A stretch of DNA of 64,000 bases, taken from positions 4,354,171-4,418,170 of the forward strand of contig BCKC01000002.1 in NCBI GenBank assembly GCA_001600455.1, in the 5' to 3' direction. This document shows positions 35,651-62,573 of this stretch, one piece after another. The notes beneath the pieces are model-generated. The model saw nothing but the letters and a program-made list of their open reading frames with translations, did no database searches and was not told where the DNA came from. The stretch's first letter is position 1. Each line of letters opens with the position of its first letter. The position numbers and the translations under genes are program-made. This stretch comes from Endocalyx cinctus. Its lineage: Eukaryota; Ascomycota; Sordariomycetes; Amphisphaeriales; Apiosporaceae.

Positions 35651-38600
35651 ATGAGTCCTGGATCCGCAGACGAGTCTTCTGTTCCTGAAACACATAACCA
35701 ACAAGAGGTATCTTCCGACGCCACTCACCAATCCGATCAGCTGGGTGACGATGATACTTCTAACACCGCTGAGAAAACTCACGCTCGGGAAGAGGTCGAG
35801 AGCGAGAACCTAGGAGAAGGCAGTGATTCTCCCAAGCCCGGTAGTGTGAACAACGATGATCCTTCCAGCCCCCGTAAAGTATTTTGCTTGCATGAAGATG
35901 CTGAGCCTGAAGAGGCCAATGCCGAAAAGAATGAGACGAAAAGGGTTAAGTTTTTAGTCATCAACCATGAAAATGCCGATTCGGCTGAGTGGGACCTGGA
36001 CAGCGACTCTTCTGAGCCCCCTGATGGTGGCTGGAGGAAGAAGTATAAGACTCTCAAGAAAAATTCGGCCACTCGGACCTATGCTTCGACCGAGTATTGC
36101 AGGGCATGGCTTTCGGCCAATTATCCCTTGCCCAGTATCAATCCTGGCGATCCTAAATCCGGTAATCCTGGAGTTTCTCAGCCCGATAATCCCTCTTCTA
36201 ACCTTAATCCTCAAGATCATAAATCCAGGAATTACTTTCCTGATCTTAAACCTCGAGCGAGTTCAACCGATAATGGTTCATCAGATGTTAACGCATTTAG
36301 TAGTTCTGGAGCTTCTAAACATTCTAGTGATGAAGAAGAAGCTAAGCCGCTACTGAACCGTTTGCTATGGTACGATTTCAAAGATAATGATCCGGATTAT
36401 CACAGAAAAATGACAGCCTCCGTGATTGAGATTTTGGTCGGAGAACCGGATATTGCTATTCGCAAAAGCTTTCAGAGCAGGGAAGAACACGATAAGTCTT
36501 CCCAAGAACTGCGAGATAAGCCTGTTGATAGTACACCCTCACTCGTGGGCAAACAAACGGTCCCTGAGAGAATCCGGATCATTTCCCCGCATCTTTTAGA
36601 TTTCTTTTATGCCCTGGACACCTCAGAGTTCAAGACCGACTACAGGATGAAAACTAGCGTAGTATTGATACGACCGTATCGTTCGTTAGTTCATTTTGAA
36701 GATAAGATTCGGACTAGATGCCGAGAGCTCGAGGAATCCTTGAATACCAGTCAGACGGAGAACAAAGCTGAGCTCTGGCGAAATACCTTGGGTAGGCAAT
36801 TTGACTATAATTTTAAAATTTCTGAGTTTTTTTCTAACTAATTATTTGCTAGATCATTTTCAGTGCCTCCTGAATTTTATTGACGAATGTATCCTCCCCC
36901 GAATTAAATACGTGAATGATGCTTCTTGTTCTAAGATTACATTTGAAGATCTATGGTATCTGTTTAAACAGGGTGATGATGTGATCAGCATGTCCGATGA
37001 ACCCGAGATACAGGCATTTCGAGTGCTGTGTGTTCACGGAATCGATCATGAAGCCGGCTGGAACCCGTTTGCATCAAACTCTGCACGAACACTTGGTCGC
37101 CGTCCATCTGTATGGCTAGGGACGCCTCTCTGTATACTGTGCGCCTCCATTGATTTCGATGGGCAGCAGGTAGGCCCAGTGCAAAAGTCATTTTTGATCC
37201 CCAGATTCAGGGGATTGAAGCTCGTTTCCTCACTACCTGTGTGCCCAATAAATCGAGCATTAGACTTGAGCATTAGGCAAAGTGGACTTCAGCAGGGTCA
37301 GAAACTCCCGAAATGTCAAAATATCCCAGACCTCCGTGAGAAACTCGTTGCAAGAGGCAAACAATTCATGGATTTCACAAGCATCAAGCACATGCATTTT
37401 AATGGAATTACCCACGGGGAACATAAAGAAGAAGTAGACAGTCAAGTTATTATTGACTTTGAAAAGGCTTTCGACGCCCCCGAAGCTCAGAAACGACGGA
37501 ATAGATTCGACAACGAGACACAAACCGCTGGCTGGAAATCTGAGTTGTCAAATTTTGTTGGGTGGTCTCTATTTGATTCGTACGAGCCGCCACGATCCTG
37601 CTATTATGAGTGCTGCCGTCTAGAATTTGTACATCGCGATCACTTTGTGGACTCAATTCGCAGCACTGAGTACTTAGAGAGTTTAGTCCCAGAAGCTAGT
37701 TCCGAAGTACCATCCCTTGTCCTTCGTCCGCGACCATGGCAAGAAGCAGTCACCGGGGAGCATCCTATCAAGGATCACGAATTCCTTGTCATGTCTTATA
37801 GAGTTTTTGGATTTATCCTACAAACTCGGAAGTTTAGTGAGTGCTTCACTATTTTTGCGTCTTTTTTTTTTCTTTCTATTTAGAATAACTAGCGTTCGAG
37901 GAAGTTAATTTAAGCCGTTGTGTGTGCATTGGAGCTAACGCTTTATTCTAGGATGTATGAATATCGGTGGCCTCTCTACACTGGAAAGATCAAGTGGCTT
38001 TGTTAATAATGGCAGTGAACATGCTTCTCTTGATCACGAAGAGGCGTTTGAGCAACTTGTCCTTCCAAAAGGACACAAGAATCTTATTAAATCCTTGATT
38101 GGTCAGCATTTGACGAATAAACAGTCGGCGGTAGGAAATGAAATTTCTTGGGATATTGTACGTGGAAAAGGTAGCAAATACACTGTTCATCTCTATTCTT
38201 AGCTCTCAGGCATTCTGACACTAGATCTAGGGAAAGGATTGGTGATTCTATTGCATGGCGCACCTGGTGTTGGCAAAACAACTACAGCGGGTGAGTTATC
38301 ATCTTTACCCCATCTATCATTTAAATGTTGTAGGGCGATATTTTGACTAACGTCTCTCTAGAGTGTGCGGCTAACTACTTTGGAAAGCCGTTATTACGAA
38401 TTACATGCGGTTGGCAGCCACCGTACAAACCTAGGGATTGGATCAGCTAACACTATATTTAGGTGACCTCGGAATGTGGGCAGAACATGTCGAATCTGCT
38501 TTGCAGGAAATGTTTGTTCTGGCGAGCCGATGGGGTTGTATTCTCTTACTGGATGAAGCGGATATATTTTTGGCCGCTAGGACACCGGCAGATCTCTTGC

Positions 38601-39784
38601 GGAACAGCATCGTGTCAGGTTCGTCTCCCTCAATCTCCAAATCATCATCGCATATTAAGTCTAATCACACGATCTTTGATATAGTATTTCTTCGGGTGAT
38701 GGAGTACTACACGGGCGTCTTATTTCTCACAACCAATCGGATTGGTGATTTTGACGAAGCATTCGCCTCGAGAGTGCATATGAGCTTGTATTATCCTCCC
38801 CTCGACCTTGATGCAACCATGTCCATATTTGAACTCAACATTAAAAGGATCAAGAAACGATTTGCAATCAGCGGTAAGAGACTTGACATGAAGGAGGGAC
38901 CTATATATGCCTCTGCTACAGACCATTGGTTGAAACATCCAAAGGCAAGATGGAACGGGCGGCAGATCAGAAACGCCTGCCAAACATCTCTAGCACTGGC
39001 AGAATTCGAAGCCCAAGGAGGCGATCACGGAACGACACGGGACCCGAACGCGGTCGTGGCAATAGAAGTGAAGCACTTCGAAACCGTGGCGAACGCATAC
39101 CTCGGTTTTATGCAGTATATGAAGGATATTTACGGGGTCGATCCGGAGCAGAGAGCAAAAGAAAGTTTTCTTCGTGCTGGTCACAAGGATGGATCGATAC
39201 AGGATCTCGGGGACCCGCTTTTATCTCGAAAACAGCGACCTGAATATCAGAACCAAGGTCTTGGATCAGACGCACGTACTCACGCTTCATTCCAAGCTTT
39301 CGGAGGTAACCCAAGCGGCGTCGGCCAATTCAGGCCGCAGTATCAGGAACAACAGCAACAACAGCCCACGGCAAGCCACCTCCAGTACGGCGTGCCTGTA
39401 CACGGCGTACAGCAACAGCAGCAGCCGCCGTATAACGCTGCACAGATGCATATACCGCAGAATATCCCTACCGGTACAGCTGGGTTTTATCCACAAACGA
39501 CCGGACCACCGCCATCAGGACACAGCCATCAGGGTTCCGTAGGATCTATGCAACAGCAGATGCCAGCCTGGTCACCGCAGGGAGTCGCTAGACCCGTATA
39601 CCCGGCGACGGCAACGGCGGAAGGAGTGAATCCTCAGCCACACCAAGCCCCTCCCGGCGTTCAGAGCTGGAGCTCGATACCAATTAGGGTCTCGGGGGAA
39701 GTTCCGGGATCGGCGATAAGCGATAACGCACAGACCGGCCATCTTCCAGAGCGTGGCCCAGACGCAAGTTCTGGTTGGAATTAG
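35651..39784 (+). CDS. AAA+ ATPase with DUF7025-like N-terminal domain
   Basis: Exons are 35651-36791, 36853-37836, 37952-38170, 38231-38290, 38362-38409, 38463-38618 and 38685-39784 (1235 residues). The first 200 residues are acidic and disordered. A DUF7025-type region follows (about 240-700). The AAA module has Walker A HGAPGVGKTTT (Lys797), Walker B CILLLDEADIF (Asp848, Glu849), a sensor-type LFLTTNRIGDFDEAF and a lid region. The short exons 4-6 lie entirely in this module, and each join restores family-conserved residues, for example SVFLRVMEYYTG. The last 250 residues are a Gln/Pro/Gly-rich tail. Such ATPases form a large lineage-expanded fungal family of unknown function. One intron donor is GTTGGC, slightly off consensus, but the frame and homology demand it. 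Confidence 0.85.
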
Positions 39785-44971: not shown

Positions 44972-46834
44972 ATCGTCGGTCTATTTATATGTATTTTTAC
45001 GAATGACTAAGAAAAGACGAAACCAAAAAAAAGAAAACCCAATATATGATAACGAAATATACTACCAAAAACAATGAACAAAACCAATGAATTTCTAGAT
45101 GGATGAATTGGGTATATTGATAGATAAACTAGATGTGTTAAAAGTATAGGAAAGAAGGAAATAAGTATATTGAGTCGAAAAGATGTACGGCTACGTTTAT
45201 AATATAAGTATCAATCAACGTCACTTTCAAGCATCAGGTTTTTTTTTTTTTAACTTGGGGATTGCCCCAAAAGTATTTGATCCCCAGCAGTAATCAATCA
45301 ATGACCATCGCCACGCCACCTCGGCAGTGTAGCAGTGTCTACTCCGTATACGAGGATATACTACAGAGTATGCGTGCGTATGCTTATGCGAAATGCCAAA
45401 ATACTACATTGGCCGTTCAACCACCTAAATAAATTCAGGGGTGGTTGGCGGGATCGTCGTAGGTATATCGCACAGTACTTATGCGTTAATCTCTATTACA
45501 CTTATGTACAGTACAAAAGACTGTATACAAAAGACCCTTAGAAAACTTGAAGGTGGATACGTTTAGTTCGGTAGTTGAGCTTTAGTAAAACGCTGCGCCT
45601 CAAAATAAAACGTATGTGTTTTTTAAGGAACAAACGAATTACGGTGTATGGGTAGATATTATGGAGTCTTATGTATATACGTACTATGTACTCCGTATGC
45701 ATGGACTGATTTCAGTATAGCTGGCTTCGACCCACTTTGAATTCGTAATGAACATTTAATTCTGTTTACTACGAAACGTCGCTGACGTTGACTTACGAGC
45801 CGTAGGCGGCGCAGTTTTATTCCTTTATTTAATATTCTATTTAATATTTGTTTCTTTGTTTATTGAATCCTAGGTGTCAACGGGTACGGAGTATGCCCTT
45901 TTCCTTTTTTTTTATTTTATTCGGTACGTACCGTGATCATCCTTACCTAACCCATTTATTTTATTTGTAACTTGACTATTTCCAAGGTCGATACCTCCTC
46001 AGCTTCTGCTCTTGTTCTTCTTCATTGCCCAATATATATTTCTTGATATACATAGCCTGATGATAATTCGATGACCGCCTTTCTACCTTTTATAGGCTAC
46101 ATGTTGTACCAGCTTCATGTTTAATTCGATTACTGTTATTGTATTCAATTAACTACCTATCCTTTCTAGATTTCTCACTAACGTTGATCATTTCCCGCCA
46201 GTGGAGTGGATGGATCGAGGTATGGTCGTTATCTAACCTAGCACTTCCTATCCTAATCCAAGGCCCTGGATTTGGATCTGAATCTAATTTCTTAGAGGAC
46301 TCTACCATGTTCTTGATCTCCACTTCAATACCTGCTTTGGGTGAAATACGGTATCGTCGATATATTCCTCCTACGTGTATTCTGCCCGCTCTCCCGTTTC
46401 TCCTCATTGAAGTAGTGGTTTACCACCCCATCCCACTGTGAAGGCACATACAATATATCAAGGCAATGCTCGAGAGAATCAGTATATTCATCGAAGATCC
46501 TAAAGTTGGAGAAAGGAAAGTACTAAGTATACTAAGGTTTTTCAGAAAATGTGCAACCTAAATACTAAGATATGTGGCAGGTGCCACTAACCACCAGCTG
46601 GCCCCATCTGGCTACCTTTCATGCCCCTTGCCATGCGGCGACGAGTACTGGTGACATATTTGGTTGCGTGAGGTTTTTTTCCCGTGGCCACTACGACGGC
46701 GCAGCGGTCACATGGGTTTTGCTCACGAAAAGCACGACTGAAGGACCGTGCCAGTATATAACCGGTATGGATACTATGTACCTAAAAAAAAAAAAAAAAA
46801 AAAAAAAAAATCAGAAGTGCTTACACTCTGATTT
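44972..46834. other. Gene-free region between PLC-like and NLR-like genes
   Basis: 1.86 kb. It includes the presumed PLC promoter and several TACTCCGTA/TACGGAGTA motifs (about 45341, 45690 and 45884). An A27 run at 46784-46810 lies just beyond the NLR-like stop codon. Reading frames here (46139-46441 and 46153-46407) match no family known to me. Confidence 0.55.
46784..46810. repeat. A27 homopolymer 3' of the NLR-like gene
   Basis: An uninterrupted A run that is T-rich in the sense direction of the adjacent minus-strand gene, 24 bases beyond its stop codon. Confidence 0.8.
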
Positions 46835-49800
46835 TCAACGCGTAGAAGTTAGGGAAGAAATACCCGACATAAACCTTTCCCAACTTAGGAACGATCTTGG
46901 GCCAACTAGACTAATTTCAGAATCTTCCAAATATTCCGAGTCTTCTGAATATTCTGAATATTCCGAGTCTTCAAGATATTCTGAATATTCCGAGTCTTCA
47001 AGATATTCTGAATATTCCGAATCTGAATCCTCTGATTCTTCTACCCGGTCATTTATCCTATGCCCATACTTGAGTATGATTCTAGCGAGCGACTTCTGCC
47101 TTATCCACGCTTGGTCCTGCCTCAGAAATGTGCGGAACAGTTTTTTGACTTCATGACTACGAGACTCGATCTCAGCCGCCCAGTCCAATACAGTCAAGCC
47201 ATCATTATTCTTGGCCTCAATCCGAGCGCCCTTCTTGAGCAGCATCTTAAAAGCGTACTTCCGCCCCGCCTCGGCCGCGCAGTATAGTGGTGTTTTGCCA
47301 TCTTTATCTCTGCATTCAATCTGTGCCCCGTGCTCAAGGAGCAGCTCAACGTTACTTCCACACCCGTTACCGGCCGCAATGTGCAGTGGTGTTTTCCCTT
47401 CCACGTCTCTTGCGTTGATCTCGGCCCTGTAACCCAGGAACACCGGCATGGTATGACTCGACACAGTTTCGGCCGCGTAGCATAGTGGCGTTTTGCCGTA
47501 CTTGTCTTGGATCTCGGTTTGGGCCCCGTTCTTAAGGAGTAACCTAACCGATTCTGAATTCCCGTTACGAGCGAGAATGTGGAGTGGTGTTTTGCCTTTA
47601 TTGTCTTGGGCGTTGATCTGAGCTCCGTGCTCGAGTAGCAGTCTGATTTGACCAGTCAAAGTATGAGTATGATAATAATTACCCGCCTTATGTAATGCCG
47701 TCCTACCATCTTCATCTTGGAATTCGGTCTCTGCTCCATACTCGAGTAGCATCTTCATTTCTTCGAACGAGTAGCCACATATTGCTTGGCATAGTGGCGT
47801 CGTACCGTATTTATCTCGGACGTTGGTCTGGGCTCCCCGCTCAAGTAATAACCTAATGATGCTACCTGGAGCCCGTTCATCCATTGCATATAATAACGGT
47901 GTCATGTGGTCATTGTCTCGAGCTTCAATATCGGCACCTTCTTCGAGCAGTAGTTTAACGATTTTCTCCTGTTTTCCTTGGATTGCATAATGTAAGGGCG
48001 TCTTGCCTTCGCTTCCTCGAGCATCGATATGGTGCCCTTGCTCGAGCAATAGCTCTACGATCACCTCCTGGCCATGTTCAGCTGCCCGGTGCAGGGCCAA
48101 ACCACTTATTTTTTGGGAGGTCTTGAGGAAAGGTTTAGCACCTCCCGCGAGTAGTAGCCTTTCTACATCATCGTGGCCATAATATATAGCCATTGTCAGT
48201 GGTGTTTGGAGGTATTGATCCTGAACATTCACTTTTGCGTTGTTCCGTATCAAAACACTAACGACCTTTTCATATCCATTCGCGGCTGCGTGCCACAGTG
48301 GTGTTCGACCTCTCTTGTCTAGGGAATTGACGAGAGATTCTCTGTGGAACGTTTTTGTCAGAACTGGAACCCTAATTTTCTGGCTTTTTTGGTAGTTCAG
48401 GAGAGTCTCCACGGTACTTTCATGCCCATTGACACAGGCCCACGATAAGGCTGATCGTCCGTAATTCGTCTCACGTGAGTGCAAGTCCAACTTTTTGTCT
48501 TCTAGGAGCATTAGGCGAACAACCGGCTCTAATCCAAAATAAGATGCAGCCGTCAAGGCAGGCATCGAAAATGAGAATTCTCTCCTCGTTATAAGCGCGT
48601 AAATATAGATCCCAAGATTAGATGAAACATCACAAAGTAGTTTTGCCTTATGTATTATTTCCTCAGTATTTGTTTCTTCCGCCCTTCGAAAGTGGGTTGT
48701 CCATCTTTGAATCGCGTAGTTGAAAAAGTACCCCCTTTGCTCTTTCAGTCCAATGTACCGTATCGAAATTTCCGCTAAAATTCGGTTGGATTCCTTTGGT
48801 AGAAATGAATTTTTCCATCGTTGAGAGGCTGCATCTTTCTGAATCAAGAATTCTCTGGCTGTTTGATGCAAAAGATAAATCTTTGATCCAGAGACAATTA
48901 TAAAAAGCCCGCATAGATCCCTGAGCGTCTGGTGAAATCGCTCCTCTGACTCAAGTTCGAGTTGAATACCGTTTCCTTCAACACTCAAGGCCGTAGCCAT
49001 CTCTGCTAGCGAAAGAGGCCAAGTAGCAGCGATGATTATGTGCAGGACTTTTCTGGCTTTGGCTACATTGATGCTTCTATTGAGAATCTTTTCATACGCG
49101 TCCTCAAGCTTCCCGGGAATCGTATGGATAATTTCTCGTATATGATCCGTAGTGAACTCGCCCATTTTTTTGATCTCATCAAAAATGATGTGGATCCATA
49201 AATATGTTCGATTGGGAATACGAGCCAACTCGTCCTGTAGAAAACGTTTCTCGTCATTTTGAAGTCCGAGCCATAAACCGACGTCCTTTATCTTAGCTTG
49301 AATCACAAGATCGATTTCGCGGGAGATCTTCTCTACTTCGGCCTCGCCCTCTCCGTTAAGGCGAATAGCACGCTTCGAATCCGCCAGAGGTTGAAAATCC
49401 CTCTGAAAATACCGATGCGGTCGACTCGTCAGGATAAACTTTAAGGCGGATCTGCTGCGTCTGCTTTCGTGGAACCTTCTCAGGGCCTCGGTCAACTGAT
49501 GCCGTCCATCTTCACCGCATTCATCTAGTGCGTCCAGGATACAGATAATTTCCCCGGCATCTTGCGAACTTGTGACGTCAAGAAAAACCTCCCAAAGACC
49601 CTTAAAAGAGGCGTGAAGAGCTCTGTCTTCTTCGAACCTCTGGAGGACTTTGTCGGTAATTAGATTACGATTTTGGTCAAATAGCTGGCGCAGGATGCAG
49701 CATAGGGCGTTCTCGATACTCCTCTGGTCCTCGAAGTCGTCCTTGAAGAAGAAGTAACAAGTAGTTCTCGTCTCAGAAGTCGGCAGCACGTTATCTATCA

Positions 49801-51100
49801 AGTGCCGAGCCAGGACGGATTTCCCGCAGCCCGGATCCGCCGAAACCAAAAGGAATCGTGCCGTTGCGCTTTCTTGCCATTGACGAAAAAGGTGATGCTG
49901 TGAAAACCATTCGCAGGTTCCTTTCACCCGTTCCGGATTTCGGTCCTTGCGATCTCGAATTGGCAGGGCAGAAAGACCCCAGAGGAACTTGTTAATCCTG
50001 CCTCGGATTGCGTTATTTGCTTGCCAACGCTGCATATCCCCTAGCATTTGGCTACACATATGTTAGAAATTGGTTAAAAGTAATCGGGATTTGAAGGACT
50101 TTTCGTACTCTATTCTGTCCTGTAGCGACTTCCATCCGTCGTGTGAATTAGTTTCCTTTGGTAGGGATTCGATGACACTGTTCAATACCACTTGAGCTGT
50201 GTTTGCGTTTTCTTGCCCAAAGTTCTTGGCTATTTCTGCAAAGCCATCTTCATCTCCTTTTATCTCGTCTACCTCATTATAGGAAGTCGCAGAATTCAGT
50301 TTGTCCTTCAATATTCTCACGCATAGTTCGAAGCAGCGACCCAACCCATGCAAGAGGTCTAAAGCCATCTCGTCTTCGACGGTAAGGGATCCAGGAGAAG
50401 CCTTGTAAAAGATATCATGCGCAAATTTGTTTTGCAGGTCTTCTCCTAGAGTCGTAAGCTGTATTTCGAACATGATGCCGGCGTATTCACCGATGGCTCC
50501 CTGCTCATCATCCCGTAAGCCGACGCGGTAATTGTGGGTTTCGTAGGCGCCAAACCACGGTTGTTTCCAGTTCTGACCAACTTCGCGGTCGGGCCGGAAG
50601 TGAGCCAGAGTCTTCTTCGACTGAAAAGTTTCTCTAATAAAATCCTGTCCTTTTTCGCGATCGTCCTTATATGTCAATACGATCCTGAGCCCGGCGAGAT
50701 CATGCATTTCGTAGAAAATATCTTCTAGACCTTCGAAACCCCGCTGCTCTTGTTCCCAAAGTTGCTTCTCGCGTCTCTTGAGCGATTCCTTAGCAGAACC
50801 CACCGCTTTGGCCCGGCCAAAGACTTCAGCAGAAATGCCTCTTTCTTCTAGTTCGCTCTCGATGAAATCTTTCAGGTCTTTCATCATCTTATCATAATCG
50901 TCGCGCAGTTCGGGCCATTTGGTATTGGCGAAAATTTCTCTTAGGTAGGTACTTCTCTCCCTCCCACCTATAAATTGAGAAAGCGACTGCTCATTATTCG
51001 TTTTAGTGATTAAATCCTGGATTTTACTTCGCAATTGCTCCCCTTGGAGAACAAGTTCGTCTCCTGTTAACGCAGAAGCTGCCGTGTATGTCAAATCCAT
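46835..51100 (-). CDS. NLR-like receptor: RelA/SpoT domain - NACHT - ankyrin repeats
   Basis: Exon 1 is 51100-50109 and exon 2 is 50051-46835, joined by a 57-base intron (GTACGA donor, TTCTAACAT branch, TGTGTAG acceptor), giving 1402 residues. Without that splice the two halves would be read as separate genes. Residues about 90-260 match a RelA/SpoT nucleotide-synthetase fold: Arg96 and Lys98 in GRAKAVGSAKESL, metal-type Asp134 in HDLAGLRIVL, His189 in YETHNYRVG, Glu212 in FEIQLTT and His228 in FAHDIFYK. The NACHT NTPase (about 380-560) has Walker A SADPGCGKS (Lys408), Walker B IICILDALDEC and FILTSRPH. A winged-helix-like segment with LLHQTAREFLI follows, then about 13-14 ankyrin repeats (825-1313) and an acidic repeat tail (1335-1375). 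By analogy to fungal NLRs, the ankyrins sense, NACHT oligomerises and the N-terminus acts. Synthesis of (p)ppGpp or another nucleotide is inference. Confidence 0.87.
46919..47040 (-). repeat. 27-base minisatellite coding SEYSEYLED-type repeats
   Basis: In-frame tandem repeats near the 3' end of the NLR-like gene encode a 9-residue Ser/Glu/Tyr/Asp unit about three to four times, with degenerate flanking units. Confidence 0.8.
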
Positions 51101-52215
51101 GATTTTTACTAATGAGGATTATATTGGTGTGAGACACAGAATAGATATTAAATAGAGCGGAGAGATAACAGGACAAGATTGACCATGAATTACGAGTGAA
51201 AGTTGTAGAGAAAACACTCGATAAGCGATATCTGCCCAAGTTCTCTCAAGTATACCCAATTGTCCTTTTGGCCCCCAATTGCCCCAAATTCGGTCCGACC
51301 ACCAGTTTCTAGAATGCAACATTATTCTGCGAGGAATCATAGGAGACGAGTAATTTTTCTTTTGCGATAATTAGCATATAAACTTACCCGCCCAGTTACA
51401 GCATTATACCCCCATACCACGCCAAGCTCCTCCCCCATAGTGTAAAAGTCCCATGGGGAATTTGGAGACCCCATAGGTTACCCATCAGGGCTATGTAAAT
51501 CCCATTGGACTCTCATAGGGGTAAGGCAGATATTACGGGATTTCCATGGGCGCTTGTCAAATATCATAAAGTTTACACGAGGGAATATATAAAAATACAA
51601 AAGACTGTAATATATTTTATTATATATTTTATTATATAATAATCTTAAAATAATCAAGTTTTGAAAAAAAAAAATTCATGGTTATTTCATTAGGAGACTA
51701 ATAGGAGCTATTTCTTTTTCTTATGAGGGCCCTATGGGAGTGTTTTTCCCCCCATGGCAAGGTGATAGAGCCCCGTGGGATCCCATTGCAAACCCCTAAC
51801 TAATACTTATTATCGTCGTATCTCATTTGCTCCTTGCGACCGTTTCTCCTTATTCCCTGTTAGCCGAGAAAGTCGCTGTAAGGCTGTATTTTCGTTTTAT
51901 GAGTTTATGCCTTACCCGGAATTTGTTTTAATGTATAACTGTAGCAGCCATTTAAATTATGGAGAGCCCAGATGCGTAGCGAATCGGAGGCTTTGCAACA
52001 ACTATTTCGTACAAATTTTTTTTTTTTTTCACAAAATGCCTCGAATGCCAAAAGCGTAAAAGGACAACTACACGGATTCCTCGAGTAAAAGCCTTTAGGA
52101 CAAAGTAATGTAAGAGGTGATAAATCTACCTCGATCATTAGTATACCGCCCCTGTTCAATAATCTGTGCCTTTTCTTTCTTTCATGCTGTTCATTGTTAA
52201 CACGTGCAAAGACAA
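51101..52215. promoter_or_regulatory. Divergent promoter region, NLR-like / CorA-like genes
   Basis: 1115 bases between two divergent genes. It contains a repeat-like block at about 51420-51790 (clustered CCCATGGG-type motifs flanking an AT-rich core), described separately. No coding sequence is supported. Confidence 0.5.
51420..51790. repeat. Possible MITE-like block with CCAT/ATGG sub-repeats
   Basis: About ten CCCATNGG-type motifs cluster on both sides of an AT-rich core (about 51590-51665, TTTTATTATA repeats). The two flanks are partly inverted copies (TCCCATGGGGAA versus a GCCATGGGGGGAA-like reverse complement). No clean terminal inverted repeat or target duplication was found, so this is tentative. 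Confidence 0.3.
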
Positions 52216-53781
52216 ATGGACACTACAAAAACTTCATACAGAGATTTTATATATTTCCGAAGCCAAACTAACCCTTGCATTGCTGCCCTGGCAGAGCATG
52301 TTAATCGTGTCGCTAAAAGTGCAAGTAATGCCGTCATTCTTGATTACCCCAATAATAGCGGACAGTCCCCCTCAGATCCTCTGAGAGTGACTGGGAGTAA
52401 CATTGTAAGCTTGCTTAATACTACAGAGGGCAGCAACGGGAAAATTCTGTTTATTGAAGACATCCAATCTCATTTGATAAATTATCTCGGCGAGACCCTA
52501 GATATCGACCCGCTCTTTTTCTCTGGTCATATTGCTACCGATTTTAAAGATGTCGAGAAAGCCCCTCCGCCCCCGTCTCTTGCTTTCTTCCCTTCTCAGA
52601 TTGCCGAAAGGGGCTACCTTCACATCCATTATCAACAAATAGTCGACTTGGGGAATGCAGACGATTTCGTAGGCTCGCCATATGTGTTCAAAACGGATTC
52701 GAATATTCCTCGCAATGTTCGACGACTACCCCCACTATCTGAGCGGCAACTTGCTCTTGTGCGGGGATGTTGTTCTATACTTCTCAAGAGGTTTCAAAAT
52801 TCATGGATATGTAGGTTTATAGATAATTTCCGGTAATTGACGTCCATACATCTCTAATATCGACTATTAGGTATAATCCTTACCGACCCTCCCGTTAGGG
52901 TCGTTTTGGAAGCTCAGAAACCTGAAGGTCAGAAAATATATGCATGCCAGCCCTTTCAGGGAGGCTTTGAGAGCTTTTCACAACCTACATCCTTCTCTTC
53001 TTTCAAGAATGGAGAAAATGACCTCATCAAATGGGATAAAACTTCGATTTTGAGTAGTCTACTTTATTACTTCCGCAATCACCCACCTGAATTCTCGGCT
53101 ACAAACCCTACAATACTAAGCCTTGGGTACTACTCAACGCGCATCGTTCTTGCTGAATGGAATTTATATCAGCTTTTGATGAGCCGTTACCTTAAACACT
53201 ACGAGTATTCTCTACAAAACGCACATGGTCGAATCCACAATATGGACATACTCGAACTCCAACGCTGGCGGCGACGAAGCAAGCAAAGCCGGCAGAAACT
53301 AGCCCTCCTCGCCGAGTTTGTTCACCACTGGCTTAGCATGGAAACCCACAAGCAGTCTTGGGAGATGATACTCAGAGACATCAGCATCCTAGATGGACAC
53401 CTAAAAGACTATAGTCATTCCATGGAACAGATGATTCCGGTAGCGACGTCGATCGTGCAACTCCTCGAATCACGGCGGTCGATACGCCAAACCGCCAACG
53501 TAACGCGACTGACCTACATCGCGCTGGTGTTCGTGCCGCTATCTTGGGTCTCCGGGTTATTCAGCATGTCTGATCAATTCTCCCCGGGACAAGAACATTT
53601 TTGGGTATATTTCGCGACATCGCTGCCGTTGCTCCTCGTTGTCTTGCTTTTGTCCGCTCTTCCGAGTAGTCATCTAATCACAGGCTTCAAGTGGCTGTGG
53701 ACAACGGTCAAGATGTCTAGAGAAAGGCGGAAGAAAGGCGTTGCTGAAAAGCGCGTTGGTCACCTGGGAAGCCAGGTTTGA
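52216..53781 (+). CDS. CorA-like two-helix membrane protein
   Basis: Exons are 52216-52810 and 52871-53781 (501 residues). The N-terminal 380 residues form a soluble domain, and a long amphipathic helix leads to two closely spaced membrane helices (about 412-431 and 442-462), the layout of CorA/Mrs2-type metal channels. The canonical GMN motif after helix 1 is not present. The sequence is SGLFSMSDQFS, as in many fungal CorA-like proteins of unknown transport activity. The tail is basic (KMSRERRKKG). The gene is divergent from the RelA-NACHT-ankyrin gene, which raises the possibility that it is a membrane partner; this is inference. The first in-frame ATG, at 52216, was chosen. Confidence 0.82.
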
Positions 53782-59945: not shown

Positions 59946-62573
59946 ATGAACAATAGAGCATTTACTACAGCTACCCTACTGGGTCTAGCTGCTCTTGTCT
60001 CAGCTAGTGGCTGCCCGTTCGCCGACCCAGCCGGGCTCCGCGCTAGAGCAGATGGAGCCGACGTCCAGTCTCCCATGGCTTCTGCTATGGTCGACGACAG
60101 CACCGGATTCTTGAGTGATGATGTTGGTGGACAGATCTCCGATCAAGACAGTCTGAGGGCTGGTGAGAGAGGACCTACACTACTCGAAGACTTTATTTTC
60201 AGGCAGAAGATAACCCACTTCGACCACGAAAGAGTAAGCGCCTTCTCCGATAGTCTCGTATTTCAATATATTTCAGATATCTCCATGCTGTGAGAGTTCA
60301 CAGTGCATATATTATGGATTTGACTAACATTTCTCCAGGTTCCCGAGCGTGCCGTTCGTAAGTACTGTCTCAAAGCGCCCCACACTGTCTCGGCGTAATT
60401 AAGTGTTTGTACTATATTTATGAGACGATCAAGTATCTAATACACAATGGAATGTAGATGCTCGAGGTGCTGGAGCCCACGGAACCTTTACCAGCTACGG
60501 AGACTGGAGCAATCTCACTGCCGCATCGTTCTTGAGTGCTGCTGACAAAGAGACGCCGGTCTTTGTCCGCTTTTCTACGGTAGCAGGTTCTCGCGGGAGT
60601 GCTGACACTGCTCGTGATGTTCATGGATTTGCGACGAGATTGTGAGTTTATATCCGCTCTAGATTGATAAGCTCATCAACTGACTCAGATATAGCTATAC
60701 CGATGAGGGCAATTTTGGTATTTCGATCATCCCCCCGAAGCGTATCAACCTATGTTAAGCTAACGATCTTCATAGACATTGTCGGGAACAACATTCCCGT
60801 CTTCTTTATCCAAGATGCTATTCGCTTTCCAGATCTCATCCATGCAGCCAAGCCAAGCCCGGACAGTGAGATTCCCCAAGCAGCGACTGCTCACGACTCC
60901 GCTTGGGACTTCTTTTCTCAACAACCCAGTACCTTACATACCCTGTTTTGGGCTATGGCTGGCTTCGGTATCCCTCGAAGCTACAGGCATATGGACGGAT
61001 TTGGAGTACATACGTTCAGACTAGTGACTGACGATGGCACCTCGAAGTTGGTCAAATGGCACTGGAAAACTAAACAGGGTAGAGCTAGTCTGTACTGGGA
61101 GGAGGCTCAGGTTCTCGCCGGCAAGAACGCGGATGCGCACCGAAGTGACTTGTTCGACGCCATCGCGTCCGGTAATGGGCCTGAGTGGGAATTGGCTGTT
61201 CAGGTCGTTGACGAGGACAAAGCCCTTGCATTTGGCTTTGACCTCCTTGACCCCACTAAGATAATTCCCGAAGAGTTTGCGCCCCTGCAAAAACTTGGCG
61301 TTATGAAGCTTCACACTAACCCCACAAACTATTTCGCGGAGACGGAACAGATTATGGTAAGCTTGCCACTAGCCCTTTATTATATGGGTCTGGGGAATAT
61401 GCTAACGAGTACTCAAAGTTCCAACCCGGACATATCGTACGTGGTGTTGACTTCACAGAAGATCCGTTATTGCAAGGACGTATCTTTTCCTACCTTGACA
61501 CGCAAATCAACCGACACGGTGGTCCCAACTTTGAACAGCTTCCCATTAATAGGCCTCTCGTCCCCATCCACAACAATAACCGTGATGGTGCAGGACAGAA
61601 CTTAATCCACAAAAACACTGCTGCCTGTAAGTTGCTTTTTCATTTGAAATAAACGGATATTATCACCAGGAAGCTTACGTTATTAGACACTCCCAACACC
61701 CTAAACGGAGGATTCCCACAGCAGGCCACTAAGAGCAACGGCCGTGGATTCTTCACAGCACCTTCACGCTCCGTAACCGGAAAGCTTGTGCGAGGCCTCT
61801 CGTCTACTTTCGACGACCACTGGTCCCAGCCGCGACTATTCTACAACTCGCTCACACCTGTTGAGCAACAATTCCTTATCAATGCCATTCGGTTCGAGAC
61901 GAGTCACTTGATGTCAACAACCGTTAAGGAGAACGTGCTAGGTCAACTTAACCGGATCAGCAACGACATCGCGGTGCGCGTAGCCGACGCCCTGGGAATG
62001 CAGGCGCCCGCCCCCGACGAGACTTACTACCACGGCAACACCACGGCGGGGATCTCCATCACGAATGGCACCCTCCCGACCGTCGCGACACTGAAGGTTG
62101 GTATCCTCGCCACGACCAAGACGGCGAACGGCACCTCGGCGATGGACCAAGCCGCCTCGCTCAAGAAGTGCCTCGAAGCGGGCGGCCTCGTCACCTTCGT
62201 CGTGGCCGAGACCTTGGCCGAGGGCGTCGACAAGACGTACTCGGCCGCGGACGCCACCGACTTCGACGCCGTCATCGTCACGTCGGGGGCCGACGCCGCC
62301 GGATTATTTACCCTGACCCCCGGAAGCCCCTTGTACCCTCCCATGCGACCGCTCCAGATCGCCAACAGCGCGTACCTGTTCGGCAAGCCCGTCGGCTACT
62401 TCGGCGGCTCGGCCGCTAAGCCGAGTCAGATGCTCGCCGCGGCGGGGCTGGGCAATCGGAGCGAGAAGCAGGAGGGTGTCTACTTCTCTTCTTCGGCCGA
62501 TGCTATGACTGCTAGTATGGAGGAGGGTTTGAAGGTGTTCAAGTTTACTTCTAGATTTCCTATGGATTCGTGA
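59946..62573 (+). CDS. catB: Secreted large-subunit catalase
   Basis: Breaks hydrogen peroxide into water and oxygen outside the cell or in the wall. Exons are 59946-60233, 60339-60357, 60458-60641, 60695-60717, 60776-61356, 61419-61626 and 61687-62573 (729 residues, the size of fungal CatB/CAT-3 enzymes). The N-terminus is a signal peptide plus a likely Lys/Arg-type propeptide site. Catalytic His103 lies in [14 protein letters not shown], split between exons 2 and 3. The distal Asn is in [12 protein letters not shown], and the haem-ligand Tyr390 is in [19 protein letters not shown]. The C-terminal 170 residues form the flavodoxin-like (class I glutamine amidotransferase-like) domain found in large catalases. 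Exons 2 and 4 are only 19 and 23 bases; both are required by the reading frame and by conserved sequence. The last exon has a GC-rich codon block. Confidence 0.94.

Follow-up and report, generated by a model that had tools for sequence, protein, structure and literature searches.

The window analysed here is a stretch of 64,000 nucleotides from the ascomycete Endocalyx cinctus (contig BCKC01000002.1, positions 4,354,171 to 4,418,170), and our subject is a minus-strand gene that runs from an ATG at position 51100 to a stop that ends at 46835, exactly where the initial annotation had placed it. Sequence models and fold comparison suggest that this gene probably encodes a fungal NLR-type receptor (NLR: NOD-like receptor) in which a RelA/SpoT-fold pyrophosphokinase serves as built-in effector. 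The receptor probably triggers arrest or death.

Domain architecture and fold

At the level of sequence models and predicted fold, the four-part architecture and the synthetase fold are established. Exon 1 (50109..51100, minus strand) encodes, in residues 1-330 of the protein, an N-terminal synthetase domain of the RelA_SpoT type. The Pfam model RelA_SpoT (PF04607) matches residues 96-234 with a significant score of 33.1 bits (E 7.5e-8, Pfam cut-off 27), and the closest structures are RelQ and RelP: sequence model and fold both identify a synthetase domain of the RelA/SpoT homologue (RSH) type, and the active-site conservation described below is consistent with it.

Exon 2 (46835..50051, minus strand) encodes a NACHT-type NTPase (NPHP3_N, 135.5 bits), a winged helix (GPIID_WHD, 28.4 bits for a cut-off of 27), ankyrin repeats (Ank_2, 398 bits in 10 stretches), an acidic tail and the stop; Pfam's own NACHT model gives 22.7 bits, below its cut-off of 26.7. 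The NTPase contains a Walker A-like motif, ADPGCGKS, at residue 402, where Ala replaces the first Gly, and a Walker B-like motif, IICILDALDE, at residue 499. Two sequence hallmarks of NLR/STAND proteins are thus present: a central NACHT-type NTPase with Walker motifs, and C-terminal repeats that form a superstructure. The initial annotation had read the gene as a fusion of RelA/SpoT, NACHT and ankyrin parts, and as an NLR; Pfam matches and fold bear it out.

The donor side of the active site

Reference residues were taken from FaRel2 (R64, K66, S70, K74, R77, D90, R95, Y128, E145, Q147; PMC11782079) and SaRelP (R78, K80, S84, K88, R91, D107, R112, Y151, E174, H190; PMC5794853). The alignment consists of 35 sequences, the query and P0001-P0034, and counts are given over 33 of them, leaving aside P0032 and P0034, which were judged bacterial-looking. 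Six of the 33 rows come from named fungi (P0001-P0005, P0033), and the rest are fungal-type by similarity and intron tail.

Residues R96, K98, S102, D134, R139, E212, Q214 and H228 are invariant in all 33 fungal-type sequences, and R109 is kept in 32. Of 345 columns, 36 are invariant, and they include eight of the 11 reference positions (hypergeometric P 8.6e-7, or 7.2e-5 when restricted to residues 88-235), figures that are optimistic, since the rows are related sequences. Judging from this alignment, the ATP/Mg2+ half of the active site is largely kept across divergent relatives.

The receptor and its sister

The host genome (44.76 Mb, 15 contigs) holds one PF04607 match and 77 NPHP3_N matches, some of which are exon fragments. 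In the relatives, the RelA_SpoT domain is found with several partners: NACHT-ANK (P0001, from Lasiodiplodia mahajangana), NACHT-WD40 (P0002, P0003), NACHT (P0033) and NB-ARC-TPR (P0004). A tree was built from 12 NACHT cores: those of the query, P0001, P0002, P0003, P0033, and the own-genome paralogues L003-L009, which are 7 of 27 other own-genome matches. P0005 was omitted because it is too short, and P0004 because it is not a NACHT protein.

In this tree, the query groups with P0001 and L003 (97/99) and, within that group, with L003 alone (87/83), to which its NACHT core is 53% identical; P0002, P0003 and P0033 form a separate group (99/98). None of 200 bootstrap trees (0%) unites the RelA_SpoT receptors in one clade, and their labels require two changes or more. 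The RelA_SpoT domain thus seems to sit on two separate NACHT lineages, which suggests that effectors are exchangeable.

The sister receptor L003 (C2:5361954-5366243) lies on the same contig as our gene, about 0.96 Mb away. It matches query residues 342-764 with 44% identity, while all other own-genome matches reach at most 31%. It is divergent to a gene for a protein with HeLo (94.7 bits) and HET-s_218-289 (64.1 bits) domains, and a 34-residue frame upstream of L003 matches the HET-s motif (E 4.4e-5; 23.8 bits, under the Pfam cut-off of 32.2). The locus has the composition of a HET-S/NWD2 pair, that is, a HeLo and HET-s_218-289 protein adjoining an NLR that carries the same motif N-terminally; the divergent arrangement has been described for HET-S and NWD2 (PMC3321046). 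L003 has a HeLo partner and the query a synthetase fold, so that one receptor lineage is coupled once to each.

Possible activities of the effector

The mechanism that we propose is as follows: the ankyrin repeats would detect a ligand that signals non-self or damage, the NACHT part would oligomerise, and the crowded N-terminal domains would switch on ATP-dependent transfer of pyrophosphate to an intracellular acceptor, for which GDP/GTP, adenine nucleotides and tRNA are candidates. The outcome would be growth arrest or cell death, as for the pore-forming HeLo protein that the sister receptor presumably controls. An exon-by-exon search for the HD_4 alarmone hydrolase found none in the host genome, and was positive in 10 of 14 control genomes. 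This agrees with Atkinson 2011 (PMC3153485), which reports divergent synthetases in two Aspergillus species and in Gibberella, without RSH hydrolase there, and places Mesh1, among fungi, solely in Cryptococcus neoformans. With no HD_4 hydrolase detected, the product may be hard to reverse, which would make arrest or death a likely outcome.

Several observations weigh against this reading. A conserved fold is, by itself, no demonstration of catalysis. On the donor side, the position of SaRelP K88 and FaRel2 K74, a Lys that contacts the ATP triphosphate (PMC5794853, PMC11782079), is occupied by Thr in 27 of the 33 sequences and by Ser in the other 6 (Ser106 here). The acceptor loop has the sequence PWFGAYETxNHR. 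Compared with P0032 and P0034 it contains an extra residue, Ala185, and Asn190, found in 33/33, stands where these two carry His; Thr216, also in 33/33, stands where P0034 has the Arg that belongs to EIQ[IV]RT, and P0032 Gln. The acceptor loop thus departs from the bacterial type, and the activity may be lower or of another kind. The hydrolase search covered a single family, HD_4, exon by exon. Finally, the NACHT tree is small (12 rows) and has three long branches, and shuffled labels need no more changes than the real ones in 118 of 500 trials, so that a clustering of the RelA_SpoT label is not clear.

Loops are easily misaligned, and this one was therefore realigned together with five bacterial sequences, namely P0032, P0034 and three stretches from the PDB, under 6 settings of MAFFT. 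All 30 placements put the Tyr on Y186, the His on N190, the Arg or Gln on T216, and the Lys on S106. The initial annotation held that the residues expected for synthetase activity look intact: this stands for Arg96, Lys98, Asp134 and Glu212, but not for His189, which is His in 15 of the 33 sequences and hence not conserved, nor for the G-loop His, replaced by Asn190, or the Lys replaced by Thr or Ser.

Given the changed acceptor loop, toxic modification of the nucleotide pool or of tRNA is, in our judgement, more likely than plain bacterial-type ppGpp signalling. In its specific form, which we offer as a tentative possibility, the domain would be a eukaryotic toxSAS: an NLR effector that goes back to the alarmone-synthetase fold but no longer makes ppGpp and pyrophosphorylates tRNA ends or adenine nucleotides, with the same abortive-arrest chemistry as in bacteria placed below unrelated sensors, and swappable with pore-forming HeLo effectors on the same receptor lineage. 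It is the acceptor loop that leads us to rate the tRNA or adenine-nucleotide reading slightly above ppGpp; the closest structures, being ppGpp synthetases, speak against such a preference, and the repeated MAFFT alignment of the loop left the odds between the two unchanged.

A genuine cytosolic (p)ppGpp synthetase, with which the activated NLR would make guanosine alarmones from ATP and GDP or GTP, the alarmone or the drain on GTP leading to arrest, is somewhat doubtful. It has on its side the fact that RelQ and RelP are (p)ppGpp synthetases, and that the G-loop Tyr, a binder of the guanosine nucleotide, is kept as Y186 in 31/33 fungal-type sequences, the other two having Phe; Table 1 of Dyrka 2014 (PMC4986451) also pairs the Pfam name with 'ppGpp synthesis'. 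However, the RelQ-type acceptor motif GYRSxH of bacterial enzymes is replaced by GAYETxN, with Asn throughout at the position of the His in every MAFFT placement, Thr takes the place of the Arg of EIQ[IV]RT in all rows, and NCBI's equivalog model for RelQ/YjbM, NF053588, scores 18.1 bits for a cut-off of 320. The HMMER alignments are divided: two of five agree with the placement at N190, and the other three, which all come from chains of a single protein, YjbM, shift the His to residue 191 by gapping the loop differently. This favours the (p)ppGpp alternative to the extent that residue 191 is His in 29/33 fungal-type sequences, though Tyr in the query.

We consider it unlikely that the domain is a pseudoenzyme, a fold that binds ATP or another nucleotide as an adaptor or switch, without pyrophosphate transfer. 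The loss of the Lys88/Lys74 position in every fungal-type row and the altered acceptor loop are what such a protein might display, but the full conservation of the Mg-binding D134, the adenine-stacking R96 and R139, E212, Q214 and the ribose-binding H228 exceeds the needs of a scaffold.

An effector aimed at bacteria, in which a fungal alarmone would disturb bacterial competitors or symbionts, seems highly improbable, since the partner of the sister receptor, encoded in the same genome, is a HeLo-type protein. Proteins of this type are a class known to kill the fungal cell itself. That self-killing function is also reported in PMC3321046; the bacteria-directed role was suggested by Dyrka 2014 (PMC4986451), as manipulation of bacteria.

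Gene structure

The preferred reading, a receptor with a built-in effector, requires that the two exons be joined. Unspliced, the first frame has 345 amino acids and closes within the intron; excision of 50108-50052 joins the frames into a product of 1402 amino acids. The putative spliceosomal intron (50052..50108, minus strand) has 57 bases and is in phase 2. Its signals are a donor GTACGA, a branch-like CTAAC and an acceptor TAG. The fungal donor consensus has T at +6, which this donor lacks, and the word 'perfect' in the initial annotation was thus slightly too strong.

There are eight GT..AG choices that join the frames, with donors 850-1040 bases into the gene and introns of 40-150 nt, so that an open join alone is weak proof of an intron. 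We prefer 50108-50052 because of homology at the join: the residues DRI and DQML that it brings together align with 'RRVDQVL' of P0001, an uninterrupted annotated protein. Among 26 other relatives (P0006-P0031), 24 have read-through tails compatible with a phase-2 intron at the same site, by a tail pattern that was defined after the tails were inspected and that P0010 and P0029 do not fit. Homology and shared site together uphold the in-frame junction between the RelA/SpoT-type domain and the NACHT-ankyrin part, as first proposed.

The closed 345-residue frame, which intron retention could turn into a product, and ATG codons near the start of the exon-2 frame, where the sequence would permit a separate start, might suggest two genes, one for a RelA_SpoT protein on its own and one, downstream, for a NACHT-ankyrin protein, but annotated fusions in Lasiodiplodia, Clarireedia, Stachybotrys, Cladorrhinum and Diaporthe, and an intron site common to relatives, leave this almost no credibility.

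Retention of the intron, in which the frame ends after residue 345, would give a free synthetase domain without receptor. At the other end of the gene, a tandem repeat of 27 bases in 4.0 copies (46916..47024, minus strand; Tandem Repeats Finder, score 155, 90% matches) encodes the acidic Ser/Glu/Tyr C-terminal tail that follows the ankyrins, and a run of 27 A is found at 46784-46810, just 3' of the stop.

Neighbouring genes and searches for a donor

Two frames at 52201-53778 (plus strand), the second of which is CorA-like (PF01544, 38.2 bits), are separated from the NLR gene by about 1.1 kb and oriented head to head with it. We considered this CorA-like gene as a partner and dropped it, having found nothing that links it to the NLR gene. 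Frames at 36744-39781 (plus strand) match DUF7025 and the fungal AAA+ lid domain, and are probably one AAA+ ATPase gene; a catalase lies in two frames at 60646-62570 (plus strand; Catalase, Catalase-rel, Catalase_C). Rfam gave no match at gathering threshold within the window.

A bacterial or viral donor was sought in GTDB contigs, with the query domain and P0032, and in viral contigs, with the query domain: no confirmed relative was found, by a single-protein locus search that finds close relatives only and says little on distant donors. A tblastn search of phages yielded no more than two matches, both weak (E 0.6) and each in a Mycobacterium prophage record annotated as 'GTP pyrophosphokinase', and PHROGs gave phrog_9640, of unknown function (E 3e-5). 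The PADLOC match of exon 1 to PDC-S33 (E 0.015) was not used. The NCBIfam matches of exon 2 to bacterial ankyrin proteins are all below cut-offs, and reflect the ankyrin repeats.

Comparison with known systems

The joining of RelA_SpoT to an NLR is already on record (2012-2014). NWD5 of Podospora anserina (Pa_5_1230), a RelA_SpoT-NACHT-WD protein, was described as RelSpo-like in 2012 (PMC3321046); it is also listed in PMC3689799, with a maximum fold change of 3.62 for nwd5 in incompatibility. Dyrka 2014 counts RelA_SpoT as one of 12 N-terminal effector classes of fungal NLRs (PMC4986451), a survey of Sordariales finds that 14 (82%) of the RelA_SpoT NLRs are T-NACHT (PMC12258605), and RelA_SpoT is among the 19 effector profiles of PMC9815663. 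The initial annotation was right to recall that surveys name this domain at the N-terminus of fungal NLRs (PMC4986451, Table 1; PMC12258605). The literature matches listed, chiefly open-access papers, included no functional assay or enzymology of RelA_SpoT in fungal NLRs, which is a weak negative.

What this analysis adds is the comparison of residues, which points to a donor site largely kept and an acceptor site changed, the HET-S/NWD2-type sister with the two predicted NACHT lineages, and the HD_4 negative. The 'ppGpp synthesis' label, derived from Pfam, becomes a testable split between donor and acceptor. If the domain is active in the eukaryotic cytosol, the RelA_SpoT effectors would be explained at the level of the enzyme, and fungal NLRs would be tied directly, through their chemistry, to the CapRel/toxSAS immunity of bacteria.

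Our gene shares with NWD5 a RelA_SpoT N-terminal domain on a NACHT NLR, and differs from it in having ankyrins instead of WD repeats, a comparison based on its published description. Its domain class is that of the RelA_SpoT effectors of the surveys (PMC4986451, PMC12258605). The protein O1611_g5132 of Lasiodiplodia mahajangana (P0001) is also RelA_SpoT-NACHT-ANK, with an identity of 59% in the N-terminal domain and 60% in the NACHT core; it has 1209 amino acids and a different ankyrin array, and is named hypothetical protein.

The nearest own-genome NACHT paralogue sits in a pair of the HET-S/NWD2 kind (PMC3321046), where the HeLo effector is separate and its recruitment is proposed to occur by amyloid templating, whereas here the putative enzyme domain is built in. 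With the bacterial RelQ and RelP, our domain has in common the fold, most ATP/Mg residues and the G-loop Tyr; identity is about 20%, and the domain differs in its GAYETxN for GYRSxH, in the missing Lys88-type residue and in its fusion to an NLR. CapRel and other toxSAS resemble our protein in that an immune effector with a synthetase fold is coupled to a sensor (PMC9712102): the sensor there is a pseudo-zinc finger, with a neutralising YXXY motif that is not found in residues 1-345 here, and in our gene it would be the NACHT-ankyrin part.

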